A program made the position numbers and the translations under genes. DNA of 64,000 nucleotides, taken from Oscillospiraceae bacterium (lineage in GTDB: Bacteria > Bacillota > Clostridia > Oscillospirales > Acutalibacteraceae). The notes under the pieces are model-generated. The model had not been told where the DNA came from. It did no database searches and worked only from the letters and a program-made list of their open reading frames with translations. How positions within the stretch are numbered: position 1 is the first letter of the stretch; each line of letters opens with the position of its first letter. Shown here piece after piece: positions 3,483-61,389 of the stretch. The stretch lies in NCBI GenBank assembly GCA_015065785.1, contig SVPR01000002.1:1-64000 (forward strand). Reading direction: 5' to 3'.

Positions 3483-3527
3483 TAGGGACTAGGGACTGGG
3501 GACTAGGGACTAGGGACTGGGGACTAG
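3483..3527. repeat. Heptanucleotide tandem array (TRGGGAC)6
   Basis: Six uninterrupted 7-bp units, TAGGGAC or TGGGGAC, plus a partial TAG. The array runs into the stop codon of dusB (complement of 3524-3526), so the last unit is partly coding. No palindromic core is visible beside it. It belongs to the class of heptamer arrays seen at nine other places in the window with different words. Confidence 0.9.
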
Positions 3528-4501
3528 TTTTCGTTTTTCTTACTTAGTTCTATGAATTCACCGGCAATATATTTTAAATCATCCATAGATTCAATAGAAC
3601 TCATTTTTGCTCTGTATTCTGCCGCACCTCTGAGTCCTTTTGTGTACCAGGCGGCGTGCTTTCTCGCTTCTCTTATGCCGACTCTTTCGCCCTTGTATTC
3701 ACAAAGCTTTTCAATGTGCTTAAGCATAATCAGCATTCTTTCAATAACAGGTGGCTCAGGTATAATTCTTTCGTGCGTGAGCCACGCATTTATTTGCTGG
3801 AAAACCCACGGTCTGCCTAAAGCACCACGGCCTACCATAACTAAATCGCAACCTGTTTCTTCAAGCATTTTTGCGGCACTCCTGCCGTCAGTAATATCGC
3901 CGTTACCAATAACAGGCACTTTTACAGCCCTTTTTACATCTCTTATAATGTCAATATTAACAGGGGGGGAGTACATCTGCACCTTTGTTCTGCCGTGAAC
4001 TGTCAAAGCAGAAGCACCTGCTTGCTCACATCTTTTTGCAAGCTCTACTGCATTTATTGTGTTATCATCCCAACCCGAACGCATTTTTACCGTGACGGGT
4101 ACAGCAGAGGCTTTAACAACCTCTTTTACTATTTGCTCTGCTAATTCAGGGCTTTTCATAAGCAACGCACCGCCACCCGAAGCTGCAACCTTAGGGGCTG
4201 GGCAACCCATATTTATATCAATAAATTGTGGCTTGAATTCTAAAGCTTTTTCAGCGGCAATAGCCATTATTTTTGGGTCGTTACCAAAAATCTGTGCACC
4301 GCAGGGGCGTTCAGGGTCAGTAATAGTTAAAAGCTCTTTGCTTTTTTTATCGTCAAGACTTAAACCCTTGGCGCTTACCATTTCTGTAACAGAGTAACAA
4401 GCGCCATAATTTACACATAATTCACGAAAGGCTCTGTCAGCAACACCTGCCATAGGTGCCAAAGCTACCTTGCCATTCCCTTGTAAAAAATCTAAACTCA
4501 T
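3524..4501 (-). CDS. dusB: tRNA-dihydrouridine synthase, DusB family
   Basis: 325 residues from the chosen start. FMN-dependent TIM-barrel enzyme that reduces uridine to dihydrouridine in the D-loop of tRNA. Motifs in order: LAPMAGVAD (FMN binding), DINMGCPAPKV with the catalytic Cys, VPVTVKMRSGW, LTVHGRT, VIGNGDI and MVGRGALGRPW. The frame is open 54 bases further upstream, but the ATG at 4501 (MSLDFLQGNG) is preferred: AGAAGG lies 6 nt before it and the family N-terminus begins there. Just upstream (genome right) lies a palindromic repeat element, and the stop lies in a heptamer array, so the gene stands alone between repeats. Confidence 0.93.
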   Translation of the reverse strand: MSLDFLQGNGKVALAPMAGVADRAFRELCVNYGACYSVTEMVSAKGLSLDDKKSKELLTITDPERPCGAQIFGNDPKIMAIAAEKALEFKPQFIDINMGCPAPKVAASGGGALLMKSPELAEQIVKEVVKASAVPVTVKMRSGWDDNTINAVELAKRCEQAGASALTVHGRTKVQMYSPPVNIDIIRDVKRAVKVPVIGNGDITDGRSAAKMLEETGCDLVMVGRGALGRPWVFQQINAWLTHERIIPEPPVIERMLIMLKHIEKLCEYKGERVGIREARKHAAWYTKGLRGAAEYRAKMSSIESMDDLKYIAGEFIELSKKNEN

Positions 4502-4574
4502 ATTTAGCCTTCTTTCATTCGTGAGTAGTATAGCATAATCAGAATGGTTCTTCAAGCCGTAATTAAATTAAAAA

Positions 4575-4756
4575 TTGAAAATGGAAAATGGAAAATTTCG
4601 GAACTGCGTTGGCAATTATAATTGAATAACAAAAATATAAGTTCTATCATTTAAAGTTTTTTGTAAACTAAAAATGATAGAACTTTTTCTGTTTTCTGTT
4701 TTCTGCTTCCTGTTTCCTGAACAGTCCGCAGGACTTACGAAATTTTCCATTTTCAA
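4575..4756. repeat. Palindromic element with heptamer ends (copy A)
   Basis: Left array TTGAAAA/TGGAAAA (4575-4595), boundary TTTCGG, mini-hairpin AAC-TGC-GTT (4602-4610), then the 43-nt core palindrome 4641-4683 (GTTCTATCATTT...AAATGATAGAAC). To its right come five units of TTTTCTG/CTTCCTG (4685-4719), mini-hairpin AGTCC-GCA-GGACT (4723-4735), CGAAA, and the inverse array TTTTCCA/TTTTCAA (4743-4756). Outer arrays are inverted copies, so the element has terminal inverted repeats. It fills the dusB-mcsA intergenic region. No ORF inside. Confidence 0.85.
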
Positions 4757-4783
4757 TTTAAAAGTATATCAATTAAATAAACC

Positions 4784-4812
4784 TTGAATAAAATTGTAAT
4801 TTGATTTATAAT
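4784..4812 (+). promoter_or_regulatory. Sigma-A-type promoter of mcsA
   Basis: TTGAAT (4784-4789), 17-bp spacer, TATAAT (4807-4812), 37 bases upstream of the mcsA start. No CtsR heptad operator is seen around it. Confidence 0.75.
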
Positions 4813-4848
4813 AAATAAAGTATATTATAAATCCACGGGGGTGCTTTT

Positions 4849-5352
4849 ATGCTTTGTCAGAATTGTCAGAAAAATGAGGCTAATATGCACATGAAAAGAA
4901 TAATAAACGGAAGTGCTACTGAGGTTCATCTTTGCTCAGATTGTGCCCGTTCACTCGGTTATGGCGATAGCTTTGGTAGCTTCGGGCTTGGTTTTAGCGA
5001 CCTTTTCAGTGACTTGTTAGGCAGGAGCGAAAAAACTCTTTCAGGAAGCAGTACTTTAAGATGTTCGCTTTGCGGAAAAAGCTTTTCTGATATAGCAGAA
5101 AGTGGCAGGGTAGGCTGTGCTGAATGTTATGTTACTTTTTACGATAAGCTTTTGCCAACATTAAGAAAAATCCACGGTAAAACTACCCACCAGGGAAAAG
5201 CACCAATGAATTTTGCCGAAATAAAGCAAGAGCCTCGTGTTAATGTTGATGACTTGAAAAATCAATTAAAAGCGGCTATTGAAAGAGAAGATTTTGAACT
5301 TGCGGCAACGCTTCGTGATGAAATCAACGCTATAAACGGGGGTGCTAAATAA
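4849..5352 (+). CDS. mcsA: McsA-like zinc-binding protein with UVR motif
   Basis: 167 residues. Partner and activator of the protein-arginine kinase McsB in protein quality control. Four CxxC pairs are visible: CQNC (3-6) and CSDC (29-32), then CSLC and CAEC in the middle, which bind zinc in McsA. A UvrB/UvrC-type coiled motif closes the protein (about 130-165, LKAAIEREDFELAATLRDEI). The ATG follows a GGGGGTG Shine-Dalgarno. The TAA overlaps the mcsB ATG (TAATG), so the two are translationally coupled. In most Firmicutes the order is ctsR-mcsA-mcsB-clpC; here ctsR and clpC are absent from the locus. Confidence 0.9.
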   Translation: MLCQNCQKNEANMHMKRIINGSATEVHLCSDCARSLGYGDSFGSFGLGFSDLFSDLLGRSEKTLSGSSTLRCSLCGKSFSDIAESGRVGCAECYVTFYDKLLPTLRKIHGKTTHQGKAPMNFAEIKQEPRVNVDDLKNQLKAAIEREDFELAATLRDEINAINGGAK

Positions 5353-6362
5353 TGAGTGCAAAGTGGTATTTAGGCACTGGTGTTCAGAATGATGTTGTAA
5401 TAAGCACAAGTGTTCACTTAGTCAGAAATTTAAGAGAATACCCGTTTCCGCAAATGCTTTCTTTACAAGATAAATTAAAAGTAAATGCCACTATTAAGGA
5501 TGCGGTGGATTCTTTAACTGATTATAACTTCAATTATCTTGAAATGAAAATGCTTTCTCAATATGAGGTTGTGTCATTAGCAGAAAGACATCTTGTAAGT
5601 CCTGAATTTGCTTCTTCCAGAGATGGCAGAGCACTTTTAATTACAGAGGATGAAGCAGTGAGCGTAATGCTCAATGAAGAGGATCACATTCGTTTTCAGG
5701 TTATGTATGCCGCATTTTCACTTGATGAAGCCTATAAAACTGCAAACGAGATTGATAACGCTTTATCACAGAAGCTTAATTTCGCTTTTGATGAAAGAAT
5801 AGGCTATTTAACACAAGACCCGACTATTATCGGTACAGGTATGAAAGCATCAGTTGTGCTTCACTTGCCTGGTCTTGCAAGTCTTATGCAGATTCCGAAG
5901 CTTATTTCAACTGTTCAGAAGTTAGGACTTACCTTGCGTGGCTCCTACGGTGAGGGTGCTGCGGCTAAAGGTGATTTGTTCAGATTGAGCAATAGTATAA
6001 CTTTAGGTATTTCTGAAAAGGCGGCAATTGAGAATTTAAAATCTATTGCTTTACAAATTGCGGCACAAGAGAGAACTGCAAGAGAAGAAATTTTAAAATC
6101 AAATGCAACTGAAGATAAAATTTTCAGAGCTTACGGAACACTTAAATATGCACGACTTATTGATACAGATGAGCTTATGGAGCTTATGTCGTTAGTTCGT
6201 CTTGGTGCAGTCAAAGGTCTTATAAATATGGATACCGCAAAAATCGAGGGTATGATGATAAATATGCAGCCTGCAACAATCTCACTTTCGGTTGACAGAC
6301 CATTGGACCGAAACGGCAGAGATGCTCTCAGAGCAAAGCGAGTAAGAGAAATGTTAGGGTAG
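5352..6362 (+). CDS. mcsB: McsB-family protein arginine kinase, divergent active site
   Basis: 336 residues, near the family's usual ~350. McsB phosphorylates arginines, marking proteins for ClpCP. The fold is clear: NEEDHIR (108-114), IGTGMKAS (160-167), RGSYGEG, LSNSITLGISE, and the C-terminal phospho-arginine-sensing RDALRA matching RDxxRA. Several residues I recall as conserved in guanidino kinases differ: the N-terminal SSRIRLARN-type motif reads STSVHLVRN (S20 and H22 in place of two phosphate-binding Args), the CPTN motif reads DPTI (D156 in place of the reactive Cys), and R in GxRAS is K165. Both candidate catalytic Glu regions (NEED, YGEG) remain. It may be a weak kinase, a pseudokinase or lineage-specific. 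Confidence 0.88.
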   Translation: MSAKWYLGTGVQNDVVISTSVHLVRNLREYPFPQMLSLQDKLKVNATIKDAVDSLTDYNFNYLEMKMLSQYEVVSLAERHLVSPEFASSRDGRALLITEDEAVSVMLNEEDHIRFQVMYAAFSLDEAYKTANEIDNALSQKLNFAFDERIGYLTQDPTIIGTGMKASVVLHLPGLASLMQIPKLISTVQKLGLTLRGSYGEGAAAKGDLFRLSNSITLGISEKAAIENLKSIALQIAAQERTAREEILKSNATEDKIFRAYGTLKYARLIDTDELMELMSLVRLGAVKGLINMDTAKIEGMMINMQPATISLSVDRPLDRNGRDALRAKRVREMLG

Positions 6363-6380
6363 TTTAGGAAGTTTTATTTT

Positions 6381-7322
6381 ATGGCATTAAAACAAGAACA
6401 AAAGAAACAAATAGTTGCATCGCTTTTGTTGACGCTTGCGGCTTTTATATGGGGAAGCGCATTTGTTGCACAAAGTGAAGCACTGGATATTTTAGGGCAA
6501 TTTACATTTTTAGCATCGCGTTCATTTTTAGGTGTTTTGACACTTATTCCGGTTTCCCTGGTAGTTTTCAAAAAGGGACAGAAAACAGGTGCAGGTGAAC
6601 ACAACGAATACAAAGCTTTCTTTTCAAAAGATTTAATATTGGGCGGTGCTCTTTGTGGAGTTGTATTGTTTGCCGCGTCCGCATTACAACAAGTCGGCAT
6701 TATTTCATCAGGGGTAGGTAAATCAGGCTTTTTAACCACCCTTTACATATTAGCAGTTCCGATTTTAGGACTTTTCTTAAAACGCAAGATAAAGCCATTT
6801 ATGTGGGTGTGCATTGCTCTCGGTATTGCAGGAATGTACTTTTTATGCGTAAGCGAAGCAAGTGCATTGAATTCCGGCGATTTAATGCTTATTCTTTGTG
6901 CGGTTTGCTTCGGTGTGCATATTATGGTTATAGACCACTTCGTAAAAAAGGTTGACGGTGTCCGTCTTTCATTGATTCAGTTTTTTGTTGTCGGAATATT
7001 ATCACTTGTTACTGCATTGATTTTTGAAACAATTGATTTTGCTTTAATTAAAGCGGCTTTTATTTCAATTTTTTATGCCGGTGTTTTATCATCAGGTGTT
7101 GCATACACATTACAGATTGTATCGCAGAAAAATTTAAGTCCGACAGTTGCAAGTCTTTTAATGAGCCTTGAAGCAGTGTTTGCGGCACTTTCAGGTGCGG
7201 TGTTCGGCGAAAGACTTACAAGTAACGAAATATTCGGTTGTATATTAGTATTTATAGCAATAATATTAGCACAGCTACCTGTTGAGAATTTAAAATTTAA
7301 AAAGCCATCTACAAATCATTGA
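6381..7322 (+). CDS. EamA/DMT-family transporter
   Basis: 313 residues with about ten hydrophobic segments in two EamA repeats (about 12-150 and 160-300). The first opens with the typical LAAFIWGSAFVAQ, and the end of the second carries SLLMSLEAVFAALSGAVFGE. Drug/metabolite superfamily permeases move amino acids, metabolites or drugs across the inner membrane; the substrate cannot be read from sequence. It starts 18 bases after mcsB on the same strand, takes the place where clpC is usually found and probably shares the mcsA promoter. The stop codon lies inside a bidirectional terminator. Confidence 0.9.
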   Translation: MALKQEQKKQIVASLLLTLAAFIWGSAFVAQSEALDILGQFTFLASRSFLGVLTLIPVSLVVFKKGQKTGAGEHNEYKAFFSKDLILGGALCGVVLFAASALQQVGIISSGVGKSGFLTTLYILAVPILGLFLKRKIKPFMWVCIALGIAGMYFLCVSEASALNSGDLMLILCAVCFGVHIMVIDHFVKKVDGVRLSLIQFFVVGILSLVTALIFETIDFALIKAAFISIFYAGVLSSGVAYTLQIVSQKNLSPTVASLLMSLEAVFAALSGAVFGERLTSNEIFGCILVFIAIILAQLPVENLKFKKPSTNH

Positions 7323-7995: not shown

Positions 7996-8009
7996 AATTT
8001 ATTCTCCTT

Positions 8010-11326: not shown

Positions 11327-11329
11327 GTT

Positions 11330-22353: not shown

Positions 22354-22587
22354 AAAAAAATAACGCCCCATCCCCAAAGGGACGAAGACATCTCCGCGGT
22401 ACCACCCTTATTTTTGCATCAGAGCAAACACTCTTTTGTAATATAACGGTTACACCCGTTGCAGCCTACTTAGTTTCAACCGCACCGCTCACAAGTGAAC
22501 TTCAAAAGTTGTTTTTGAAAATGCTTTCAGCCTGAGGCACTTCTCTCTGTACAAAAATTCGCTTTCTACTCTCTTGCTCAACGCGTT
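22354..22587 (-). promoter_or_regulatory. T-box riboswitch (Phe) of pheST
   Basis: Minus-strand leader with the diagnostic T-box sequence AAGGGTGGTACCGCGG (complement of 22394-22409) that pairs with the NCCA end of uncharged tRNA. A competing terminator has a CGTCCC/GGGGCG stem (complement of 22379-22384 and 22364-22369) followed by a U-tract (complement of 22354-22360). Upstream lies an extended Stem I region; the TTC that is complement of 22497-22499 is the likely Phe specifier. Uncharged tRNA-Phe should favour antitermination and raise PheST. Confidence 0.92.
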
Positions 22588-22593
22588 TAGAGT

Positions 22594-22622: not shown

Positions 22623-22638
22623 GAGGTTTTTAGAAATT

Positions 22639-22929
22639 AGAAAGCAGGAAGCAGGAAACAGAAGTTCGCTACGCAAAAATGCTGAGTGCTGAATGCTGAG
22701 TGCTGAGTTAAGGGTCTGCGACGCTATTATAATTAAATAACAAAAAGATAAGTTCTATCATTTAAAGTTTTTTGTAAACTAAAAATGATAGAACTTGTTG
22801 TTTTTATTGATTAATAATTGTAATCAAGTCCGCAGGACTTCCGAAATTCAGCACTCAGCACTCAGCATTCAGCACTTTAAAAGGCGAAGCCTTCCGAAAT
22901 TCTTAATTCTTAATTCTCAATTCTTAATT
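22639..22929. repeat. Nested palindromic element with four heptamer arrays (copy B)
   Basis: Left to right: array AGGAAGC-type (22639-22659); array ATGCTGA/GTGCTGA x4 (22679-22706); mini-hairpin GTC-TGC-GAC (22714-22722); 43-nt core palindrome (22752-22794), identical to copy A; mini-hairpin AAGTCC-GCA-GGACTT (22826-22840); CCGAAA; inverse array TTCAGCA/CTCAGCA x4 (22847-22874); second mini-hairpin AAGGC-GAA-GCCTT (22881-22893); CCGAAA; array TTCTTAA x4 (22900-22927), reaching the stop of the pilin gene. Two modules of hairpin + CCGAAA + array are stacked on the right. Confidence 0.85.
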
Positions 22930-23373
22930 CTATTCCGCGTCCTTATGTAAATCTCCATCTTCACCGCCATCGCAGGTGAGTGTTACGATAGGAATTCCAC
23001 TTGTGTGTGGCTTTACAGTTATAACATAGGTTCCGTAAGACGGGCAACAAGAAAGGTTAGGGTGGATTTCTGTTTCGAGTAAATAAATCTGGTCTTGTGA
23101 AAGTGGCAATTCGTGCTCCTTTACTATAGGAGTTATGCCATCAGTAGAAGTAATAGCATAATTAAAATCTGCATTAAAATTATTCCTTATGCACCAGTTT
23201 TCAGCTTGAGCTACCAAATCTTTTCTTTGTACTCTGCAAATCTTTATGTTTGCGCCTCTTGTAACTGAGCCGTAAGCAGGAATTGCAATTGCAGTAAGAA
23301 CCCCCATAACTAAAACAACAATTAACAATTCAACTAATGTAAAACCCTTTTTAGTATTCAAAAACTTCAACAT
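22930..23373 (-). CDS. Type IV pilin-like prepilin
   Basis: 147 residues from the ATG at 23373 (MLKFLNTKKG), which has GGGAGG 7 nt upstream; a TTG two codons earlier lacks spacing for a Shine-Dalgarno. A class III signal peptide is clear: KKG|FTLVELLIVVLVMGVLTAIAIPAY, with Gly -1, Phe +1 and Glu +5, so it is a prepilin-peptidase substrate. The C-terminal part has four Cys in the last 60 residues (SCCPSYG, TLTCDGG) that could form disulfides. No prepilin peptidase, assembly ATPase or platform gene lies in the window, so it is isolated; it may be a minor pilin, pseudopilin or competence pilin. Confidence 0.85.
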   Translation of the reverse strand: MLKFLNTKKGFTLVELLIVVLVMGVLTAIAIPAYGSVTRGANIKICRVQRKDLVAQAENWCIRNNFNADFNYAITSTDGITPIVKEHELPLSQDQIYLLETEIHPNLSCCPSYGTYVITVKPHTSGIPIVTLTCDGGEDGDLHKDAE

Positions 23374-34461: not shown

Positions 34462-34631
34462 AAGACAGGGGACGGTTCTATGTCTTGACAATTAAATGTT
34501 GATATGGTAATATTAAACAGGGTGATAATATGCCAAGAACAGTAAGAAGCAAGACAGGGGACGGTTCTATGTCTTGACAATTAAATGTTGATATGGTAAT
34601 ATTAAACAGGGTGATAATATGCCAAGAACAG
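34462..34631 (+). repeat. 81-bp direct duplication of the RAYT 5' flank
   Basis: Bases 34462-34542 and 34551-34631 are identical: REP motif GGGGACGG, promoter TTGACA/17 bp/TAATAT, RBS and the first codons MPRT. The first copy opens a 15-codon frame that stops, the second drives the complete transposase. Confidence 0.95.
34574..34602 (+). promoter_or_regulatory. Promoter of the RAYT gene
   Basis: TTGACA (34574-34579), 17-bp spacer, TAATAT (34597-34602). A second identical promoter lies 89 bases upstream (34485-34513) in the duplicated copy. Confidence 0.8.
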
Positions 34632-35377
34632 CAAGAGAAAAGTCTGAAAGCGGAATATACCATGTAATGTTGCGTGGTGTAAACAAACAACAAATTTTTG
34701 AAGACGATGAAGATTGTCAGAAGTTTTTACAAGTGCTTAAAGACTGTAAAGAGATTTGTGAATTTGAACTTTTTGCGTACTGTTTAATGGGGAATCATAT
34801 CCATTTGTTGTTAAGAGCGAACAAAGAACCGATAGAAACGGTATTTAAAAGAATTGGCAGTAGGTTTGTATATTGGTACAATATAAAATATGAACGACAT
34901 GGGCATCTGTTTCAGGATAGATATAAAAGTGAGCCTGTCGATGATGATAATTATTTTAGAGTGGTATTGAGATACATTTTAAGAAACCCTGTAAAAGCTG
35001 GTTTATGCAAGAAACCAAAAGATTATAAATACAGTAACTGTACCGATTATCTTTCGCAAAATCAATCTGGTTTAACAGATACAACATTAGCTTTTGATTT
35101 AATAGGTAAAAGTGAATTTGAGAATTATATCAATACAGACAATGATGATAAGTGTTTAGAATTTGAAATTCAGACAACAGTTCGTTTAACCGATGAAAAA
35201 GCAAGAAAGATAATTGAGAAAAAATCAAAATGTCAAAATGTTGCTGAATTCCAGGAGTTACCCAAGGATAGAAGAGATAAGTATCTAAAATATTTCAAAG
35301 AAAAGGGATTGTCTATAAGGCAGATAAGCAGATTGACAGGAACCCCAAAAGGTATTGTTGAAAGAGTTGTAAAATAA
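34619..35377 (+). CDS. REP-associated tyrosine transposase (RAYT, Y1_Tnp)
   Basis: 252 residues. IS200/TnpA-like HUH nuclease: GIYHVMLRGVNKQ (strand 1), YCLMGNHIHLLL with the metal-binding HIH, FQDRYKS, and a helix YFRVVLRYILRNPVKAG with the candidate nucleophilic Tyr. A C-terminal helix-turn-helix-like part (about 190-252, LSIRQISRLTGTPKGIVERV) is typical of the RAYT group and may bind REP hairpins. Inverted REP motifs flank the gene (GGGGACGG upstream, CCGTCCCC downstream). The RBS GGGTG is close to the ATG. Likely a functional, domesticated transposase responsible for the REP copies nearby. Confidence 0.92.
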   Translation: MPRTAREKSESGIYHVMLRGVNKQQIFEDDEDCQKFLQVLKDCKEICEFELFAYCLMGNHIHLLLRANKEPIETVFKRIGSRFVYWYNIKYERHGHLFQDRYKSEPVDDDNYFRVVLRYILRNPVKAGLCKKPKDYKYSNCTDYLSQNQSGLTDTTLAFDLIGKSEFENYINTDNDDKCLEFEIQTTVRLTDEKARKIIEKKSKCQNVAEFQELPKDRRDKYLKYFKEKGLSIRQISRLTGTPKGIVERVVK

Positions 35378-35999
35378 CTAAAACTCGGTTAATTGAGCAT
35401 AAAACTCAGTTAACCGAGTTGTTTTGTGAAATTTAACACTTTTGACTAATTTTGTAGAAGATTTCAAAATTGCTTGATTTAATTTGAAAAAATTGGTATA
35501 TTGAAGTTAAGAAAAGACAACGGACGGCGCAGGACACAGAACCGTCCCCTGTCTTACTGTCTTACTGTCTTACTGTCTTACCACCCTGTCTTACCAATAA
35601 CTAAAACTCGGTTAATTGAGCATAAAACTCAGTTAACCGAGTTGTTTTGTGAAATTTAACACTTTTGACTAATTTTGTAGAAGATTTCAAAATTGCTTGA
35701 TTTAATTTGAAAAATTTGGTATATTGAAGTTAAGAAAAGACAACGGACGGCGCAGGACACAGAACCGTCCCCTGTCTTACTGTCTTACTGTCTTACCACC
35801 CTGTCTTACCAATAACTAAAACTCGGTTAATTGAGCATAAAACTCAGTTAACCGAGTTGTTTTGTGAAATTTAACACTTTTGACTAATTTTGTAGAAGAT
35901 TTCAAAATTGCTTGATTTAATTTGAAAAATTTGGTATATTGAAGTTAAGAAAAGACAACGGACGGCGCAGGACGCAGAACCGTCCCCTGTCTTATTAGT
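35375..35999. repeat. Three tandem ~215-223 bp copies of the RAYT 3' flank
   Basis: Copies start at 35375, 35598 and 35813. Each holds a hairpin with the arms ACTCGGTTAATTGAG and CTCAGTTAACCGAGT, a conserved A+T-rich stretch, and a REP palindrome GGACGG...CCGTCC (35522-35547, 35745-35770, 35960-35985), ending in TGTCTTAC octamers (four, three and none in tandem, respectively). Copy 1 begins inside the transposase stop codon, and its first hairpin, followed by GTTTTG, may act as a terminator. Copies differ by only a few substitutions, so the amplification is recent. Confidence 0.92.
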
Positions 36000-36520: not shown

Positions 36521-36768
36521 TCAGGGATCAGGAAACAGGAAACAGAAAACAGGAAACAGAAAACAGGAAACAGGAAACAGGAAACAGGAAACAGGAAACA
36601 GGAAACAGGAAACAGGAAACAGGAAACAGGAAACAGGAAACAGGAAACAGAAAACAGGATAATATAAATCATCCTATCATTTTTAGTTGATATTAAAACC
36701 AACTTTAAATGATAGGATGTTTTTATGTAGCGGAGCACTGTTTTCTGCTTCCTGTTTTCTGGTTTCTT
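36521..36768. repeat. Palindromic element with a 20-unit heptamer array (copy F)
   Basis: Twenty in-phase heptamers from 36521 to 36660, mostly ACAGGAA with ACAGAAA variants, are followed by a 50-nt core palindrome (36670-36719, CATCCTATCATTT...AAATGATAGGATG) and four inverse heptamers TTTTCTG/CTTCCTG/GTTTCTT (36741-36768). The long left array and short right array are inverted versions of the same word. No ORF inside is credible. Confidence 0.9.
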
Positions 36769-43969: not shown

Positions 43970-45277
43970 ATGATTCCGTTAATAAAAAATAAAAAAGCTT
44001 CTCGATATGATTCTGCATACAGTTCAAAGCTCTGGCTTTTTGAAGATGTAGAAAAAGAGGAGTATCTTTCTCATTTAGAAGATATAAAATCAAAAGGGTA
44101 TCAGGAAGCTTATAAAACAGATATTGAAGACAATCTTACTTATGTATTTCAAAATGGTGAGAACTTAATTTTCAGTTCATTTTACCCTTGTGATAATACT
44201 GTAAGAACAGTTTTAGAAAATAATAAAAATCTTCCCGAATTTAAAATGCGTGAAGATTTAGCAGAAACGACCAAAACAACTCTCTGGCAGTTTGAGGTTG
44301 ACCATTCTCTCATTGATTGTGGTATGTGCTACATAATCCGTGCTTGTGACGGCTCATTCTTTATAATTGACAGCGCCCACACTTATTCTTGCCGTGATGA
44401 TGAACGAATTCACGAATTTTTAAGAGAGCGTACACCGAAAGGCGAAAAAATAAGAATAGCAGGTTGGTTTTTCAGCCACGGTCACGACGACCACATAACA
44501 CAATTCAAAAACTTCTTAATGTATCATTCAAGTGATGCTATAATTGAGGGGCTTTACTTTAATTTCCCTACATACGACCACCGCGATGCAGGTGAGTGGA
44601 TGGGTGCAGGTGAGGGGTATGTCAGACAGTTCAGAGATGCAATAAAAAAGCGAGATGACATACCTGTTTACACACTTCATTCAGGTCAGACCTTTTTTAT
44701 CAGAAATCTCAGATTCGATGTGCTTTGTTCACATGAGGATGTGTTCCCGAAATCAAATGAAAATTATAACGATTCATCGGTTGTTTTAATGATGACTGCT
44801 GAAAACACGAAGGTCTGCTTCCCAGGGGACGCAGGTCACGAGGAAAGCTATATTTTAGAAAATCGTTATAAAAATGGCTACTTAAAATGCGAAATTATGC
44901 AGTCGGCTCACCACGCTCATTTTGGTACAACTGCTCACTTTTACAGAATGACAAATTCTGAAGTAGCACTTGTTCCGTCAACACAGATTATGTACGACGG
45001 CGATTTAGAAAGATATGAAGCCACACGCGTTATGGCAGATATTGCAAAATATCTCTTTATAGCTTCAAACGGCACCGTTGAAATAGATTTACCATATAAA
45101 TCCGGTGAATTTAAGCTTCACCCAGATGAAACTTTCGAGAACTTCCAGGGTATTAACGACCTCTGGTCTTATGAATACACCGAGGAACGAAAAAAACAGC
45201 TTTATAAAGAGTACTTGGAGCGTGGAGGAAAACCGATTCAGGAGTACGACTCCTGGAATGCAGAATTTTGTAATTAA
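43970..45277 (+). CDS. MBL-fold metal-dependent hydrolase
   Basis: 435 residues. A metallo-beta-lactamase fold domain begins about residue 105; the metal motif HGHDDH spans H170-H175, followed by FPGDAGHEE (Asp ligand) and QSAHHAHFG (His). ComEC/RNase-Z-like arrangement without a membrane part. The N-terminal 100 residues are an unassigned alpha/beta segment. It follows the phosphatase gene by 20 bases. The stop codon (45275-45277) lies inside the first heptamer of the downstream repeat, so the last residues may have been changed by the element. Substrate unknown. Confidence 0.85.
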   Translation: MIPLIKNKKASRYDSAYSSKLWLFEDVEKEEYLSHLEDIKSKGYQEAYKTDIEDNLTYVFQNGENLIFSSFYPCDNTVRTVLENNKNLPEFKMREDLAETTKTTLWQFEVDHSLIDCGMCYIIRACDGSFFIIDSAHTYSCRDDERIHEFLRERTPKGEKIRIAGWFFSHGHDDHITQFKNFLMYHSSDAIIEGLYFNFPTYDHRDAGEWMGAGEGYVRQFRDAIKKRDDIPVYTLHSGQTFFIRNLRFDVLCSHEDVFPKSNENYNDSSVVLMMTAENTKVCFPGDAGHEESYILENRYKNGYLKCEIMQSAHHAHFGTTAHFYRMTNSEVALVPSTQIMYDGDLERYEATRVMADIAKYLFIASNGTVEIDLPYKSGEFKLHPDETFENFQGINDLWSYEYTEERKKQLYKEYLERGGKPIQEYDSWNAEFCN

Positions 45278-45500
45278 AAATTAAAAATGAAAAATTGAAA
45301 ATTTCGGAACTGCGTTGGCAATTATAATTCGGAATGCGTAATGCGTAATTCGGAATTGAAGGGTCTGCGACGCAATTATAATTGAATAACAAAAAGATAA
45401 GTTCTATCATTTAAAGTTTGTTGTAAACTAAAAATGATAGAACTTTTTCTGTTTTCTGTTTCCTGCTTTCTGCTTCCTGCTTTCTGTTTCCTTTTTTCTG
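45272..45500. repeat. Nested palindromic element with heptamer arrays (copy C)
   Basis: Left to right: AATTAAA/AATGAAA array (45272-45299) overlapping the MBL stop; mini-hairpin AAC-TGC-GTT (45308-45316); array TTCGGAA/TGCGTAA x4 (45329-45356); mini-hairpin GTC-TGC-GAC (45363-45371); 43-nt core palindrome (45401-45443, one inner base different from copies A and B); eight units TTTTCTG/CTTCCTG/CTTTCTG (45445-45500). Confidence 0.88.
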
Positions 45501-45856: not shown

Positions 45857-45859
45857 TAA

Positions 45860-46172
45860 GAATGCAGAATGCAGAGTGCAGAATGCAGAATTGTGGGTCT
45901 GCGACGCTATTATAAGAATGCAGAATGCAGAGTGCAGAATGCAGAATTTCGGGGCCTGCGGCCAGCTATTATAATAATTTGTTGTAACAGTTTATTTGTC
46001 GTTTCTTTTATTATTTATTTTATCTTCTTTATTCTAAAAAAACGAACTACATTCTATCATTTGAGGTTTACAATAACCTGTAAATGAAAGAATGTAGTTT
46101 TCTTTATAAATATCTAATTATAATCAACGCGTAGCGTTCCGAAATTTTCAATTTTCCATTTTCAATTTTTAA
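45860..46172. repeat. Nested palindromic element with heptamer arrays (copy D)
   Basis: Two GAATGCA/GAGTGCA arrays of four units (45860-45887 and 45916-45943), each followed by a mini-hairpin: GTC-TGC-GAC (45897-45905), and GGCC-TGC-GGCC (45953-45963). Then a 51-nt core palindrome (46047-46097, CTACATTCTATCATTT...), mini-hairpin AACGC-GTA-GCGTT (46126-46138), CCGAAA, and array TTTTCAA/TTTTCCA x4 (46145-46172). Right array word differs from the left ones. Confidence 0.87.
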
Positions 46173-46207
46173 TTACAATTGCATTGCAGATTCTTTACTC
46201 ATCACTT

Positions 46208-47170
46208 TTAAGGATTACAACTCTTGCACGGCTCATATCCGTCAGAAATCAACTCATTTCTGTTACCATTGAATTCTTTTTTGTTCTTTTCGGACATTCT
46301 TCCAACTGATGAGCAATCGGAGTAATGGAACTTTTTAGAGCCGGTATTTAAAATATAAGCTGCACTTTTTTTGTCATCTTCTCTGACAGGTGATTCGGTT
46401 GGTTTTGCAATTAAATAGCTTTCTCCGGTTTCGTAGTCAATTTTAATTGATGGCTGTGCGTTGTAGCAAAATACATTAAAGCAGATACCCTCGCCGTTAT
46501 CTTCAACGGAAAAGCCTTCCATTTTAACGCCCTTTGCGAGAAGATTGTCACCCTCGAAAACAGGTGTAACCCTGTACATAACATGGTTTCCTGTTTCTTT
46601 AATATAGTCGGCAACCATATTTTCAAAAGGTAGCATACCCTGAATGTTTAAATATCTTGTGCCGGTTATAAGGTTCTTTTCATTTGCGTTTTCGCCCGAA
46701 AGCTGAAAGCCTATTAAATGGCAACGGTTATATAAATATTTACCGTCAACACAGTCATATTTTACAGAATGCCAACCGCTTGGCTTAATCATTCCTATTT
46801 CGCCACGCTCCTCAGTTGGCATTGTTTCAAGACCTAAACACGCAAAAGCAACACCACAACGACCTGAATAATCTAAATTCGTGTAATCTTCAAAGGCTCT
46901 TGTTGTTATTTCTGTGCTTTTGAATTCGGGGATATTGTTGTTAAGTGTAACATAAGCCTTGCCATTGAAGTCTGGGATGCTTTCATCAGAAATAACTGAA
47001 TTTGTTGTTTCCTTTGTGGTTGGAATCGTATTATGAGTTGTTTCAATTTCTGTTGTAGTAATGTTTTCAATTTTAAATTCGGTTGTTTCTGTATTGGGTG
47101 TTCCACCACAAGCAGAAAGTGTTAAAATAACTGAAATTAAAAGAGTAACTAATCTAAAATGCTTTTTCAT
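46208..47170 (-). CDS. Secreted lipoprotein DNA/RNA non-specific endonuclease
   Basis: 320 residues. Lipoprotein signal with lipobox LSAC (Cys about residue 21), a Thr-rich linker (about 28-65), then an EndA/NucA-like beta-beta-alpha-metal nuclease: YNRCHLIGFQL (DRGH-like catalytic motif with His), NEKNLITGTRYLN (Asn metal ligand) and HVMYRVTPVF. A C-terminal Ada-like YILNTGSKKFHYSDC...CKSC zinc-binding motif closes it. Likely degrades extracellular nucleic acid or aids DNA uptake at the membrane surface. The ATG overlaps the end of the upstream small gene (ATGA). Confidence 0.92.
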   Translation of the reverse strand: MKKHFRLVTLLISVILTLSACGGTPNTETTEFKIENITTTEIETTHNTIPTTKETTNSVISDESIPDFNGKAYVTLNNNIPEFKSTEITTRAFEDYTNLDYSGRCGVAFACLGLETMPTEERGEIGMIKPSGWHSVKYDCVDGKYLYNRCHLIGFQLSGENANEKNLITGTRYLNIQGMLPFENMVADYIKETGNHVMYRVTPVFEGDNLLAKGVKMEGFSVEDNGEGICFNVFCYNAQPSIKIDYETGESYLIAKPTESPVREDDKKSAAYILNTGSKKFHYSDCSSVGRMSEKNKKEFNGNRNELISDGYEPCKSCNP

Positions 47171-47571
47171 AATGAATATATTTCCCTTGTTATTTTATCG
47201 TGAGAGTTGCCCGTGAATTCTTTTGCTTCTGTCAATTTAAAATTACTTAAATCTGAATTGAAATAAAAGTCAGCAGGGTAAGCTCTGTTCCAGTGGTAAA
47301 TTATAAATTTGTTTATTTTGTCTTTGAATTCTGATAAATCAACATTTTCAACAAAGCAAAGGTCATTTTCTTTTGCATTATTCAAAAATGAATCACTGAT
47401 TATAATGTTATTCTCATAATCACTGAAAATTGTCTTTGAAAACTCATTTATTAAAATTTTACTGCCATTTGAGTATTTAATCAAATCATAAATAACTGCT
47501 TTATCTCTGCTTTGTCTTCGGTTATTAAATAACATTCCGTCATTATCATCTATACAAACTACAATAATCAT
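47167..47571 (-). CDS. Conserved protein of unknown function
   Basis: 134 residues from the ATG at 47571 (MIIVVCIDDNDG), which has AGGAG 6 nt upstream. No signal peptide or membrane helix. Recognisable patterns are CIDDNDGMLFNNRRQSRDKAV and a C-terminal WNRAYPADFYF. Similar proteins are common in Clostridia, sometimes carrying an unsupported ribonuclease label; I would not assign a function. Fourfold overlap (ATGA) with the nuclease gene downstream suggests they are made together. Confidence 0.7.
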   Translation of the reverse strand: MIIVVCIDDNDGMLFNNRRQSRDKAVIYDLIKYSNGSKILINEFSKTIFSDYENNIIISDSFLNNAKENDLCFVENVDLSEFKDKINKFIIYHWNRAYPADFYFNSDLSNFKLTEAKEFTGNSHDKITREIYSL

Positions 47572-47588
47572 AAGCTTCTCCTGTTTTC

Positions 47589-47616
47589 TAGTCCCTAGCA
47601 CCTAGTCCCTGTTATC
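47589..47616. repeat. Short heptamer array (TAGTCCC)
   Basis: TAGTCCC, TAGCACC, TAGTCCC, TGTTATC in phase; the reverse complement of the TRGGGAC word at 3483. It sits between two minus-strand genes and overlaps the stop codon of the PHP gene (complement of 47612-47614). Confidence 0.75.
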
Positions 47617-48304
47617 TGGTGTGCTTAAACTCCGCCTTATAAAGACTGTAGTTAAGCGCTTTTAATTCTCTTAAAAGGTCGTCGTTTGTCTTGATTTCGT
47701 TGTTAAAATAAACGCCACCGTGTGCTAAATCTTCAATTTCGTGGAAGTCAGAGCCTGCAACTACAATATCTTTATTGTGGAATTTTGCCCAGGCTTCTGC
47801 AATAGGGTTAGAAGAATAATGACGAGGGTTGCCGTTAAATACCTCGTAGCCGTCAAGAATTTCCCAATCCTCAACAGTTAAACCGCGTCTGAATGGGTGC
47901 GCTTGTAAAAATAAAAGTCCGTTTTCCTTGCAGAGCTTAGAAAAATCCTCTGGCGAATACGCCATTAAATCGCCGTTGCTTCTCAAGAATTCTTCAGTAA
48001 CACCGTAAACTAAATAGTCGTTTTCGCTATCATAAAAGTTAATTTCCATACCAAGCAAAACAACCATTTTACCGTCTAATTCTTCTTTTAAAATGTTGTA
48101 GCCCTCTAAAAAATGGTCAACCTTTTTGTCCCATTCTGCATTTTTGTGCTCAGGCTTTCTGAATGCAGAGTTGTTCATATGGTCTGTAACAACAATCCCG
48201 TCATAATCAGTTGCAAGATAAAGCTTGGCAATCTGCTTTGCAGGAATATTGGCACATCTGCTCACTTCGTCAGTGTGTAAATGCATTTCAAATAAATAGC
48301 TCAT
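47612..48304 (-). CDS. PHP-domain phosphoesterase
   Basis: 230 residues. Polymerase-and-histidinol-phosphatase domain with the metal motifs in order: MHLHTD, VTDHMN, LLGMEINF, LQAHPFR and GSDFHEIED. Members hydrolyse phosphoesters such as histidinol phosphate or oligonucleotides; without his genes nearby the substrate cannot be named. RBS CAGGAG 9 nt from the ATG. It has its own promoter at 48337-48365, and its stop lies in a heptamer array. Confidence 0.9.
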   Translation of the reverse strand: MSYLFEMHLHTDEVSRCANIPAKQIAKLYLATDYDGIVVTDHMNNSAFRKPEHKNAEWDKKVDHFLEGYNILKEELDGKMVVLLGMEINFYDSENDYLVYGVTEEFLRSNGDLMAYSPEDFSKLCKENGLLFLQAHPFRRGLTVEDWEILDGYEVFNGNPRHYSSNPIAEAWAKFHNKDIVVAGSDFHEIEDLAHGGVYFNNEIKTNDDLLRELKALNYSLYKAEFKHTR

Positions 48305-51857: not shown

Positions 51858-51887
51858 AAAAGCACTTGCGAAAGCAAGTGCTTTTTT
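51858..51887 (+). terminator. Intrinsic terminator of the PAP2 gene
   Basis: 12-bp stem (51858-51869 with 51874-51885), GAAA loop and a T-run. Heptamer array follows directly. Confidence 0.9.
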
Positions 51888-51899
51888 AGTTATGAATGC

Positions 51900-51986
51900 A
51901 CTCTGCATTTTGCACTCTGCATTCTGCATTTCTTATGCTTTGCATTCTGCATTTTTCTGAACACTTGCATACTTGCACACTTGCAA
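51900..51986. repeat. Heptamer array (ATTCTGC) plus octamer array (ACTTGCAN)
   Basis: ACTCTGC, ATTTTGC, ACTCTGC, ATTCTGC in phase (51900-51927), another ATTCTGC at 51944, then three octamers ACTTGCAT/C/A (51963-51986). No core palindrome or mini-hairpin was found; a half or decayed element. The hpt promoter starts nine bases later. Confidence 0.75.
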
Positions 51987-55838: not shown

Positions 55839-55846
55839 TTTTCTTG

Positions 55847-57625: not shown

Positions 57626-57630
57626 AATAA

Positions 57631-57671: not shown

Positions 57672-57672
57672 T

Positions 57673-58851: not shown

Positions 58852-58936
58852 GCCTTTGCCCCCTTGATTTTATCTTAGAATATTGTTATTATACATATTA
58901 TCAGATATTATTTCAAGTGGGGTAAATGTTAAAATT

Positions 58937-59383
58937 ATGATAAGCGTAGAAGTTAGTAGCTTTGAAGAGACAATTGGATACGCCAAAAAGCTCGGTGCTG
59001 TTTTAAAGGGTGGCGAGGTAATTGCATATTTTGGCGGTTTGGGTATGGGTAAAACTACCTTTACTTCGGGGCTTTGCGAGGGCTACGGAATAAAGGCGGA
59101 GGTTTCAAGTCCTACCTTTGCACTTGTTAATGAATATGGTAACAATAATAAAAAGGTTTATCATTTTGATATGTATAGAATTTCTACCTTTGATGATTTA
59201 TGCTCAACAGGTTTTTTCGATTATCTTGACACAAATGCAGTTTTAGCTATTGAGTGGAGTGAAAATATAGAAAACGCTTTACCCGAAAATTATATCAGAA
59301 TTGAAATAGAACGCGGTAATTTGGATGATAGCCGTATTTTAAAATTAAGTGGTGACAAAATTTATGAAGATTCTTGGTGTTGA
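58937..59383 (+). CDS. tsaE: tRNA threonylcarbamoyladenosine biosynthesis ATPase TsaE
   Basis: 148 residues from the ATG at 58937 (MISVEVSSFEE); the frame is open upstream from a TTG, but the family N-terminus fits this ATG. Walker A GGLGMGKTT, the SSPTFALVNEY motif, HFDMYRI and AIEWSENI are all family signatures. Required with TsaB and TsaD for t6A37 tRNA modification. It overlaps tsaB by 20 bases. Confidence 0.93.
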   Translation: MISVEVSSFEETIGYAKKLGAVLKGGEVIAYFGGLGMGKTTFTSGLCEGYGIKAEVSSPTFALVNEYGNNNKKVYHFDMYRISTFDDLCSTGFFDYLDTNAVLAIEWSENIENALPENYIRIEIERGNLDDSRILKLSGDKIYEDSWC

Positions 59384-60074
59384 AAGCTCTGCCACAAGTG
59401 CAAGTGTTGCTGTTCTTGAAGATGGCAAGATTATTTCACTTTCATATTCAAATACAGGGCTTACTCACAGCCAGACTCTTATGCCAATGGTAGAAGAGGC
59501 ACTCTTAAAAGCAGATGTTAATATAACTGATGTTGATTATCTTGCCGTTTCAAATGGCCCTGGTTCATTTACAGGAATAAGAATAGGTGTTTCATTGGTT
59601 AAAGGTCTTTCTGACCCGTTAAATAAAAAATGCGTAGGTGTTTCTACTTTAGAGGCAATTGCAAAGCCGTTAGAGAATACGGGTGTGTTAGCAGTTTCTG
59701 TAATGGACGCTCGTTGCAATCAGGTTTACTGTGCTTTATTTGACTGTGAAAAAGGCGAAATGAAGCGTTTAACTGATGATGAAGCAATTTCTATTGATGA
59801 ACTCACAGAACGCCTTAAAACGCAGGAAAAACACATTGTTTTAATAGGTGACGGAGCAAATATTTGTTATAACAAAATGAAAGCTGAAATAGAAAATATT
59901 TCTATTGCCTCACCAAATATTCGTTGTCAGTCAGCTTCTTCGGTAGCCTTAATTGCAGAAGAGTTAATTTTAAATGATGAAAATGCTGCTGTTTTAGCAG
60001 AAGAATTAGTGCCAAAATATTTAAGACTTTCACAAGCTGAGAGAGAATTAAAAAAGAAACAAGAAAACAAATAA
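59364..60074 (+). CDS. tsaB: tRNA threonylcarbamoyladenosine biosynthesis protein TsaB
   Basis: 236 residues from the ATG at 59364 (MKILGVESSA); an in-frame GTG at 59349 is too early for the family start. ASKHA fold: VESSATSASVAVL, SNGPGSFTGIRIGVSLVKGL and MDARCNQVY. Non-catalytic scaffold that partners TsaD and TsaE. The usual rimI and tsaD neighbours are absent and rpiB follows instead. Confidence 0.93.
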   Translation: MKILGVESSATSASVAVLEDGKIISLSYSNTGLTHSQTLMPMVEEALLKADVNITDVDYLAVSNGPGSFTGIRIGVSLVKGLSDPLNKKCVGVSTLEAIAKPLENTGVLAVSVMDARCNQVYCALFDCEKGEMKRLTDDEAISIDELTERLKTQEKHIVLIGDGANICYNKMKAEIENISIASPNIRCQSASSVALIAEELILNDENAAVLAEELVPKYLRLSQAERELKKKQENK

Positions 60075-60106
60075 ATTGAAATAAAAATTGAAAGAAGGAT
60101 TTTAAA

Positions 60107-60553
60107 ATGATAGCTATTGCATCAGACCACGCAGGTTTCCCACTTAAAGAGGAAATTAAAAAGTTTTTAGAAGAAAAAAATATTGAATTTATTGATTGTG
60201 GCGCACACTCAACAGACTCTGTTGACTATGCAAAATTTGCACAGGTAGCCTGTCTTAAAGTAACAGAGGGTTATGCAGAAAAAGCGATTCTCTGCTGCGG
60301 TACAGGTATTGGTATTTCAATGGCGGCAAATAAGGTTAAAGGTATTCGTGCCGCTTGCTGTTCAGATTATTTCAGTGCGAAATTTACCCGCTTGCATAAT
60401 GATGCTAATGTGCTTTGTATGGGTGCAAGAGTAATCGGCGGTGGTGCTGCTTGTGAATTAGTTGATGTATTCCTTTCAACAGAGTTCGAGGGTGGCAGAC
60501 ATCAGAGAAGAGTGGATCAGATTATGGCTATTGAGAATGGTGAGATTTTATAG
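60107..60553 (+). CDS. rpiB: Ribose-5-phosphate isomerase B
   Basis: 148 residues. ASDHAGFPLK at the start, CCGTGIGISMAANK with the catalytic Cys, SDYFSAKFTRLHNDANVL and GARVIGG are RpiB signatures. Interconverts ribose-5-phosphate and ribulose-5-phosphate (or allose-6-P). RBS AGAAGGA. Downstream of tsaB by 32 bases, probably in the same transcript. Confidence 0.95.
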   Translation: MIAIASDHAGFPLKEEIKKFLEEKNIEFIDCGAHSTDSVDYAKFAQVACLKVTEGYAEKAILCCGTGIGISMAANKVKGIRAACCSDYFSAKFTRLHNDANVLCMGARVIGGGAACELVDVFLSTEFEGGRHQRRVDQIMAIENGEIL

Positions 60554-60589
60554 TTAAGTAATCAGGAAATAGGGATTCGCTATGCTCAA

Positions 60590-60628
60590 GTGCTGAGTGC
60601 TGAGTGCTGAATTTCGGGACCTGCGGTC
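60590..60628. repeat. Half element: heptamers GTGCTGA x3 with mini-hairpin
   Basis: GTGCTGA three times (60590-60610), ATTTCGG, mini-hairpin GACC-TGC-GGTC (60618-60628). No right-hand partner or core palindrome before the next gene; a solo left end. Confidence 0.8.
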
Positions 60629-60694
60629 GGCATTTTAACAAACAAAAAACAGTAATGCGGCTACTGTAAATTATAAAAGAAAGAAGTAATCCCA

Positions 60695-61213
60695 ATGAAA
60701 AAAGAAAAATTAAGACTCGTAATAGTATCAGCCTTGTTTGCGGCGTTGATTTGCGTTGCAACAATGGTTGTTAAAATTCCGACACCGCTTAATGGTTATA
60801 TGAACTTAGGTGACTGTGTAATTTTAGTTGCGGCGTTTACTTTACCGTGTGGTTATGGATTTTTAGCAGCCGGGGTAGGCTCTGCTCTGGCAGATATTCT
60901 TTCAGGCTACACCGCTTATGCACCTGCGACATTTTTAGTTAAGGGCTTAATGGTGCTTGTGGTGTTCGCAGTAGCAAAGCTCTTGAAATCTGAGAAAACT
61001 GATTTAGTAAAGCTGATTGGCTTTGTTTTAGCAGAAGTAGAAATGGTTTTAGGCTACTACATATTTGAAGGCTTTATGTATGGCTTTTCAGCTTCTCTTG
61101 TGAATATCCCTGCAAATGCAATTCAAGGTGCGGCAGGACTTGTTCTGGCAGTTGTTATTGTTAAGGTTTTAGAGAAACAGAAAGTCTTAGAAAAATTAAG
61201 AATTAAAAATTGA
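60695..61213 (+). CDS. ECF transporter S component
   Basis: 172 residues, about six membrane helices. Substrate-binding S subunit pattern: ALFAALICVATMVVKIPTP, NGYMNLGDCVILVAA, GVGSALADILSGYTAYAPATF. Captures a vitamin or similar small molecule for the shared EcfAAT module encoded elsewhere; substrate not readable (pantothenate/queuosine-type families look related in outline). RBS AAGAAAG weak. The stop codon is followed closely by a repeat element. Confidence 0.85.
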   Translation: MKKEKLRLVIVSALFAALICVATMVVKIPTPLNGYMNLGDCVILVAAFTLPCGYGFLAAGVGSALADILSGYTAYAPATFLVKGLMVLVVFAVAKLLKSEKTDLVKLIGFVLAEVEMVLGYYIFEGFMYGFSASLVNIPANAIQGAAGLVLAVVIVKVLEKQKVLEKLRIKN

Positions 61214-61389
61214 AAATTGAAAATTTCGGAACGCTACGCGTTGATTATAATTAAATATTTATAAAAAAGACTACATTCTATCATTTCAAGTTATGATAAA
61301 CAAGAAAATGAAAGAATGTAGTTTGATTTTTTATATTATAATCGCGTCGCAGACTCTTAATTTTCAATTTTTAATTTTCAATTTTCAAT
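61203..61389. repeat. Palindromic element with heptamer ends (copy E)
   Basis: Array TTAAAAA/TTGAAAA (61203-61223) overlapping the S-component stop, TTTCGG, mini-hairpin AACGC-TAC-GCGTT (61230-61242), 51-nt core palindrome (61271-61321), mini-hairpin GTC-GCA-GAC (61346-61354), inverse array TTTCAAT/TTTTAAT (61355-61389). Same core class as copy D. Confidence 0.87.

Follow-up and report, generated by a model that had tools for sequence, protein, structure and literature searches.

Palindromic elements with heptamer-array ends in an Oscillospiraceae genome look like short, gene-less copies of a widespread S23p-bearing element

The short tandemly repeated repetitive (STRR) and small dispersed repeat (SDR) sequences of heterocystous cyanobacteria, the subject of a 2008 study by Elhai, reportedly comprise tandem heptamers of many words and structured repeats with compensatory changes, with nesting among them. 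Elsewhere, TAACTGA repeats of Beggiatoaceae, Cyanobacteria and Bacteroidetes form intergenic arrays across phyla, for which horizontal transfer is suspected with no evident mechanism (MacGregor 2015, PMC4679880), and the GGGAATC/GGGGAYT repeats of Xanthomonas and Nostoc prefer four units and downstream positions on the coding strand, include some inverted pairs and avoid divergent gaps (Rehm 2015, PMC4692102). The bacterial excess of heptamers has been noted since 2007, with polymerase slippage, translation control and G-quadruplexes as the causes proposed so far (PMC4679880, PMC4692102). A separate class is the intervening sequence (IVS) of 23S rRNA genes: that of Coxiella carries tandem GACAGAT heptamers ahead of its open reading frame (ORF) and a 28-bp stem, and the older idea that IVSs were mobile is mentioned in the same source (PMC4990558); 23S_rRNA_IVP is noted within rRNA insertions of the candidate phyla radiation (CPR; PMC11270868). 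Beyond the Coxiella IVS, no paper in the literature searched ties S23p genes to heptamer-array ends between protein genes (PMC4990558). Here we analyze dispersed palindromes with heptamer-array ends in 64,000 nucleotides of an Oscillospiraceae bacterium (assembly GCA_015065785.1, contig SVPR01000002.1, positions 1 to 64,000; hereafter the window), and compare them with S23p genes found between similar arrays.

The window palindromes look like short, gene-less copies of a widespread S23p-bearing element. They are probably the non-coding members, resembling miniature inverted-repeat transposable elements (MITEs), of a mobile family whose coding members carry an S23p gene between inverted heptamer-array ends. 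The observations behind this reading are the anatomy of the elements, their shared ends and words, a correlation between word and S23p protein, purifying selection on S23p, and sites that are filled in some species and empty in others.

The coding form was found in the same genome (G000, an assembly of 37 contigs totaling 2.24 Mb, at 83.6% completeness), where one element copy (locus L041, 9156-9896) has as its middle a gene matching PF05635, that is S23p/IVP or '23S rRNA intervening sequence protein', at E 1e-27. PF05635 has 11 matches in this genome; of the 60 genomes in the relatives' set 42 carry it, and of 14 control genomes none does. No PF05635 ORF lies between the ends of the window elements (10 of the 11 own-genome places were listed, all outside the window); such ORFs do lie between the ends of sister elements in the same genome (L266-L270), of which L268-L270 have the same hairpin modules and words as the gene-less copies in the window. 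The protein, of about 120 residues, is a four-helix bundle and a relative of Avd, a protein of diversity-generating retroelements (DGRs). S23p and Avd are pentamers, with which the five chains of one solved relative, 2rld, agree; a solved S23p relative from Xanthomonas is 2gsc (XCC0516). S23p is under purifying selection, with dN/dS of 0.07-0.14 in seven of eight pairs (dS above 1 in six of the seven) and a value that could not be computed for the eighth.

The usual layout at S23p loci with arrays is a purine array upstream and an inverted array of the same word downstream. Seventy loci of the order were assembled, 30 returned by the search and 40 picked from its list with their arrays not yet seen; L242 and L265 are one place, hence 69 are distinct. 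Arrays repeating at a distance (lag) of seven bases stand within 450 bp of the gene at 41 of the 70 (40 of the 69), with 74 arrays at lag 7 against 0, 0, 5, 0 and 0 at lags 5, 6, 8, 9 and 10, and these counts were unchanged when re-run with coordinates from the search tables. As a control, only 1 of 14 Y1-transposase or reverse-transcriptase loci had an array nearby. The first-pass annotation of the window was aware of nothing comparable in Clostridia, which does not hold: S23p loci with arrays occur in relatives belonging to several families of this order. Two side observations concern S23p loci more generally: the array order is reversed, with the pyrimidine array upstream and the purine array downstream, at L235, L241, L306, L308, L313 and L428, and the own-genome S23p genes L271-L274 have no heptamer arrays.

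Named plasmids chosen by protein alone are the cleanest set. Of 25 records selected by S23p protein similarity, 23 were fetched, and arrays stood at 21 of these 23 loci, on both sides in 19 and with a matching word in 16; 45 arrays were found at lag 7 and 0 or 1 at lags 4-6 and 8-11. Plasmid S23p genes of Nostoc, Anabaena, Aulosira and Euhalothece are bracketed in this way, and CTGCATTCTGCAYTCTGCATTC, a 22-nt array of the window's genome, occurs exactly, among the matches listed, in Nostoc and Moorena as well, bearing out the likeness to cyanobacterial STRR heptamers suggested in the first pass. The smallest Nostoc forms (L454, L457) consist of the S23p gene and one 31-33-nt array per side. 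On plasmids of Nostoc TCL26-01 and Anabaena cylindrica the S23p gene lies between cas2 and cas1, and in Pseudanabaena before cas1; in Monoglobus it lies between hsdS and hsdR, with its arrays seen by eye. Three cyanobacterial plasmid loci have S23p at cas genes (L453, L455, L467), the first two sharing the word AAGTAAA. On three Nostoc plasmids (L457, L461, L463) an S23p element with flush arrays sits beside short gene fragments. That such copies split a cytosine-methyltransferase gene was considered and set aside: of the upstream fragments only that of L461 (76 residues) resembles PF00145, at the start of a cytosine methyltransferase and with a weak score below the cut-off, and the fragments downstream of S23p at the three loci have no match.

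Beyond plasmids, CTGCATTCTGCAYTCTGCATTC was found in at least 115 stretches of named genomes from many phyla, among the matches listed Acidobacteria, Bacteroidota, Planctomycetes, Verrucomicrobia, Chloroflexi, Cyanobacteria, CPR and others. The 115 contigs listed hold 318 lag-7 arrays, 153 of them of the searched word, and at most 14 at lags 4-6 and 8-13. Arrays accompany 17 of 29 S23p loci in these genomes (16 by the script's own domain borders); lag 7 accounts for 31 arrays there and lag 8 for 11, and the other lags scanned (4-6 and 9-11) give 0-4. The 11 lag-8 arrays (L305-L333) perhaps mark octamer-ended relatives. S23p was present in 32 of 35 array-bearing genomes tested among the matches listed, a figure that we do not rely on, since S23p is common in any case (61 of 80 Bacteroidota, 42 of 60 relatives). 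When 29 top-scoring loci were taken from as many Bacteroidota genomes, blind to arrays, 9 of them had arrays, with 11 at lag 7 against 0-2 at other lags, and 5 in 51 kb at distances of 600-1500 bp. In the SR1 genome G075 (locus L146), the S23p reading frames contain in-frame TGA. TGA is read as an amino acid in SR1, which would account for this.

Words and proteins go together. In a pooled set of 99 S23p loci (L167 and L222 entered via an array), arrays flank the gene on either side within 260 bp at 39, and the same word is inverted in 34 of the 39, against a mean of 4.1 and a maximum of 12 in 2000 shuffles. Word distance correlates with S23p protein distance (Mantel r 0.62, n=38, 0 of 5000 permutations), both within the order (r 0.63, 0 of 5000) and when the order set is compared with 12 further loci (r 0.62; L222, among these, is itself from Clostridia), as well as within the 12 (r 0.46, 7 of 5000) and in the plasmid set (r 0.77, 0 of 5000; n=16 of the 18 given of 23, near-duplicates included). 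S23p lineages tend to have a word each of their own. In the window's genome, 59 of 97 arrays have exactly the word of an own S23p element and 79 of 97 lie within one base of it, about 21% being expected if letters are shuffled. The words are common to many loci, and one 32-nt array occurs six times behind three hairpins; the earlier impression that each site had a private word is therefore mistaken. Sampled stretches of S23p-free relatives contained no arrays in 499 kb (8 genomes), and those of S23p-bearing relatives 28 in 630 kb (14 genomes, 6 of them with none in this small sample). Of the 630 kb, 80 kb had been chosen for core hits (L081-L084) and contributed 6 of the 28 arrays, three from G018 and three from G001, and one sampled stretch of G056 includes an S23p locus.

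Comparison of related species, proposed in the first pass, yielded both filled and empty orthologous sites. In G018, G021 and G011 nothing is inserted where a gspE-like gene ends; there the window's genome has an S23p element with GAATGCA, G001 a gene-less AATTAGG element, G005 S23p with AAAACGC, G002 a GCTGAGT element and G014 a lone array, and in three more loci the next gene is not seen. At another 3' end, three species (L266, L279, L301) hold different S23p elements with different words, the S23p proteins of L266 and L279 being 70% identical and that of L301 having no BLAST match to either. The window site at 61203 is empty in G021 and carries another element in G018; that at 45272 has other words and other palindromes in G018 and G021; the place at 47579-47620 has other words in G018 and G001; and at the place of the array at 60589-60630 no array was found in G018, G001 or G021.

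A scan of 464 kb (the window and L031-L050) found 97 lag-7 arrays against 0-7 at lags 4-6, 8-13 and 15 and 64 at the harmonic lag 14, with none at lag 7 in one shuffled copy, and the tandem period of seven noted in the first pass is real. Over all words 61 of the 97 are 31-34 nt long, arrays in modules having about 4.5 heptamers. TTTTC, CTGC and ACGC arrays are mostly 31-34 nt, CAGC arrays 22-31 nt, and TTCCTG arrays range from 31 to 137 nt. Among CTGC arrays, 11 of 16 have the internal variant order T,T,C,T,T; a third-word C common to two words may be chance. Identical arrays occur behind differing hairpins, and an identical hairpin before differing arrays. Neighboring arrays in the window's genome follow a purine-then-pyrimidine order in 24 pairs, the reverse in 1, and like orientation in 23, as chains do; in the cross-phylum loci the figures are 61 for purine-then-pyrimidine and 12 for the reverse. 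By simple ORF calls, arrays favor convergent gaps (30 arrays, 8.2 kb) and avoid divergent ones (4 arrays, 10.7 kb), with 55 arrays in the 25.7 kb of tandem gaps. Where the closest gene boundary is a 3' end, the array is purine-sense in 54 cases against 9. Arrays of ATTATTC or ACTCTTC adjoin confirmed tRNA-Arg, tRNA-Ala and tRNA-Leu genes (L033, 17797-17833; L046, 17581-17616; L036, 484-514), and ATTATTC arrays also stand upstream of S23p genes in G001 and G036 (L280, L260).

In this genus the arrays are placed behind C(GNA)G mini-hairpins and point outward from the palindrome CTATCATTT..AAATGATAG. On the pyrimidine strand, a C(GNA)G triloop hairpin lies within 31 nt upstream of 58 of 68 arrays of 29-34 nt, of 8 of 29 arrays of other lengths, and in 79 of 20,000 random 31-mers; it lies within 30 nt downstream of 18 of the 68, often as the start of the next module. 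The mini-hairpin with CCGAAA or CCCACA often precedes an array, and such modules are joined head to tail via ATTATAATT, facing outward. Their stems covary, the letters varying freely with the pairing kept: 42 of 59 distinct sequences entered the alignment, and in the 30 distinct hairpins the second pair is GC 12 times, TA 7, CG 6 and AT 3, with 28 of 30 paired, the closing C-G kept in 29 of 30 and pairing partial beyond the third pair. As a general feature the module was rejected: in the cross-phylum comparison GNA hairpins mostly form within the word itself, which makes the module, as far as seen, a feature of this genus.

The core hairpin was compared in 49 distinct copies (4 of 53 pattern hits were dropped as outside the family). 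Its inner stem is constant in sequence and its outer pairs change with pairing kept, the first outer pair being TA in 42, CG in 5 and AT in 1, and paired in 48 of 49. The core recurs through the genome (98 matches, 40 of 223 candidates scored) and in 6 of 22 same-genus genomes (own included), with none in 38 others; the core-free genus-mates G007 and G013 have hairpin and heptamer modules with further words. Arrays unlinked to cores, or a core absent elsewhere, either of which would have undone the first-pass proposal, were looked for and did not occur; the anatomy it gave had missed the C(GNA)G modules, the S23p-bearing members and the place of the core as one of several middles. No longer element with CTATCATTT ends was recognized among the listed core half-sites in the fetched stretches. 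Half cores CTATCATTT are fused to GTACCAGTGGTCAG-type arrays of 7/8-nt period in L002, L003, L004, L015, L018, L025 and L041, and some half-core loci repeat the second core arm, resembling template-switch products.

The window elements, all located between protein-coding ORFs, are as follows.
3483-3525, minus strand: lone TRGGGAC array (solo end), from the array scan
4565-4760: element; AATTGAA-type array 4565-4596, then TTTCGG and hairpin (GNA loop at 4607, minus strand), palindrome 4639-4685, TTTTCTG array 4685-4719, GCA hairpin, AATTTTC array
22630-22931: element; arrays 22630-22661, 22680-22708, 22848-22874 and 22898-22931 (two per side), palindrome 22750-22796
36521-36768: element; long ACAGGAA array 36521-36657, palindrome with CATCCTATCATTT arms 36670-36719, short TTCCTG array; without the CCGAAA module
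45272-45500: element; arrays 45272-45303 (AATTAAA) and 45326-45357 (AATGCGT), palindrome 45399-45445, TTCCTG array 45445-45496
45859-46174: element; GAATGCA arrays 45859-45891 and 45915-45947, palindrome 46045-46099 with 9 outer pairs, hairpin at 46131, AATTTTC array 46143-46174
47579-47620: lone heptamer array with AGTCCCT/TTTCCTG words (by eye), directly upstream of the gene 47167-47601
51897-51955: lone GAATGCA-type array, downstream of a terminator-like hairpin at 51858-51885
60589-60630: half element; GCTGAGT array and GACC.GCA.GGTC hairpin (GNA loop at 60624, minus strand)
61194-61392: full element; AATTGAA arrays 61194-61225 and 61359-61392 (one word, inverted), palindrome 61270-61322

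All six elements and four partial ones of the first-pass annotation are thus present where it had placed them, with some changes of status. The sixth, at 61203, is a full element with arrays at 61194-61225 and 61359-61392; of the partial ones, those at 3483, 47589 and 51900 are lone arrays (the latter two below the reporting threshold of the scan) and that at 60590 is a half element. The common plan with TTTCGG and CCGAAA boundaries does not extend to the 36521 element, which has a long TTCCTG array and no such module, and the single array and hairpin per side gives way to two chained modules on at least one side at 22630, 45272 and 45859. Conservation of the core holds, the first two copies (4644-4680, 22755-22791) being identical and that at 45404 one base off. 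Terminal inverted repeats forming a long stem are found in the 61194 element, and not where the two sides differ in word. At the Rfam gathering threshold the window has no rRNA match, so the elements are not inside 23S rRNA; its single match is a T-box leader at 22375-22590 on the minus strand (RF00230).

If the palindromes are members of an S23p family, a mechanism may be outlined. Two inverted arrays of about 4.5 heptamer copies would be the ends of the element, whose middle in this genus is either an S23p gene or the CTATCATTT palindrome. An S23p oligomer may bind the stem formed by the arrays, either in RNA or in extruded single-stranded DNA, and may act with host enzymes to place copies at new sites, chiefly just beyond stop codons; copies that lack the gene would depend in trans on the S23p reading their word. 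Binding, movement and action in trans are the steps we infer.

Several observations weigh against this reading. Movement of the elements is deduced here from comparing sequences, and the gspE comparison showed no clear target-site duplication between species of about 80% DNA identity. The word correlation can be explained by joint descent of gene and ends alone, which suffices for it, so it speaks for their traveling together and not for a protein that reads the word. The difference between S23p-free and S23p-bearing relatives is confounded by kinship, the array-rich genomes being mostly from one genus. There are about 20 array clusters for each S23p match, by extrapolation from 49 clusters in 464 kb and 11 matches; 6 of the 10 own S23p copies fetched have arrays and 4 do not, and 20 of the 29 Bacteroidota loci are without them. 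Finally, the TTCCTG arrays, being variable in length, could be plain slippage products.

Of the alternatives, movement at the RNA level fares best, and we consider it unlikely. Here a reverse transcriptase would act in trans on an S23p/array transcript, a hairpin like the rRNA IVS, in the manner of Avd and the DGR enzyme, and the product would be reinserted. The described homology of PF05635 and Avd (PMC10053308) agrees with this, as do the purine-sense bias near 3' ends and the high stability of the folded element as RNA (61190-61395, -59 kcal/mol, z -8.25, with the arrays paired with each other). However, RVT_1 was not found in the window's own genome at its 83.6% completeness, nor in G007, G018, G020 and G009 (95-98% complete; 9, 5, 11 and 5 S23p matches), and a reverse transcriptase in trans was rejected on these near-complete S23p-bearing genomes; a diverged enzyme or past activity would be compatible with the negatives.

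Polymerase slippage by 7 nt, with the arrays collecting by chance near palindromes and small genes, is improbable. Heptanucleotides are reportedly the most abundant long repeats in most bacterial genomes, for which slippage has been proposed (Mrazek 2007, cited in PMC4679880 and PMC4692102), and the spread of TTCCTG array lengths fits such a process. It does not fit the near-constant length of module arrays, the same variant order at many loci, the purine-then-pyrimidine order, the matching words around S23p genes, or the lack of arrays in sampled S23p-free relatives.

Equally improbable are immobile host-functional 3' elements, such as terminators or mRNA stabilizers, kept for their structure. 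The gap counts and the covarying core stems would suit such a role, yet ordinary terminator hairpins precede some elements (51858-51885; L012 and L016 by eye), the orthologous sites compared are vacant or occupied by different elements, and S23p copies are found inside the cas2-cas1 and hsdS-hsdR gene pairs. A terminator role was rejected because such hairpins adjoin some of the elements.

The least probable of these proposals, that REP/REPIN-like (repetitive extragenic palindromic) elements are moved as single-stranded hairpins by the window's own Y1 transposase of RAYT (REP-associated tyrosine transposase) type, draws on one Y1_Tnp gene at 34619-35377 and on covarying stems, and fails in that this gene lies among different repeats carrying GGGGACGGTTC, Y1_Tnp was not found in G006, G008 and G009 with their 10, 6 and 5 S23p matches, words track S23p, and DNA folding of five 17-mers under standard parameters gave z below -3 in only two of four natural hairpins. 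C(GNA)G loops do form favorable DNA hairpins, which counts for it. The Y1 gene is flanked by an 89-bp tandem duplication (34462-34636), whose unit contains GGGGACGGTTC and is perhaps a repeat family of its own, and by 215-bp repeats (35373-35994). G-quadruplexes were rejected as a common cause, since A+T-rich words have the same number of units, about 4.5, and AATTTTC, ATTCTGC and AATTCTT are without any G-tract.

More tentatively than for the window itself, and as something that may or may not hold, we suggest that S23p elements form a mobile class without a recognized recombinase, in which the protein recognizes a heptamer word of its own and the two co-evolve, as an address would with its reader, and that most bacterial heptamer repeats, in all phyla concerned, are their ends and footprints, moved in trans. 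This would join two puzzles, the bacterial excess of seven-base repeats and the role of the orphan, widespread S23p/four helix bundle protein, and would make both testable, as each word would predict an S23p lineage and each S23p a word. Should S23p read its word, it would be a small protein family with many natural nucleic-acid specificities. For annotation, heptamer-bracketed S23p genes within operons, such as cas2-cas1, would be recognizable as intruders.

Among known systems, the STRR and SDR repeats of cyanobacteria are reportedly alike in their tandem heptamers of many words and small structured repeats, and degenerate tandem heptamers of several words are what we find; the literature searched links them to no S23p, whereas here arrays bracket S23p genes, Nostoc included. 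REPINs, BIMEs (bacterial interspersed mosaic elements) and foldback transposons, such as Drosophila FB, are similar in having inverted short-repeat arrays around a variable middle and mostly non-autonomous copies, but no RAYT or other transposase is linked to the present elements, whose ends are heptamers tied to S23p. TAACTGA repeats are read chiefly as translational control near start codons, and the sections consulted make no mention of S23p (PMC4679880); the four units of GGGAATC/GGGGAYT are tied to G-quadruplexes (PMC4692102), in contrast to the A+T-rich words of about 4.5 units here. Closest are the 23S rRNA IVSs with S23p of, for example, Coxiella, Leptospira and Xanthomonas, in which a PF05635 gene likewise lies in a long terminal inverted repeat. 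Unlike these, the elements described here lie between protein genes, form their stem from heptamer arrays on both sides, have words that go with S23p lineages, and are mostly gene-less. The link between S23p and heptamer-array ends, which we did not find in the literature searched, is widely spread, and its bearers are kin to the known IVSs and probably mobile.

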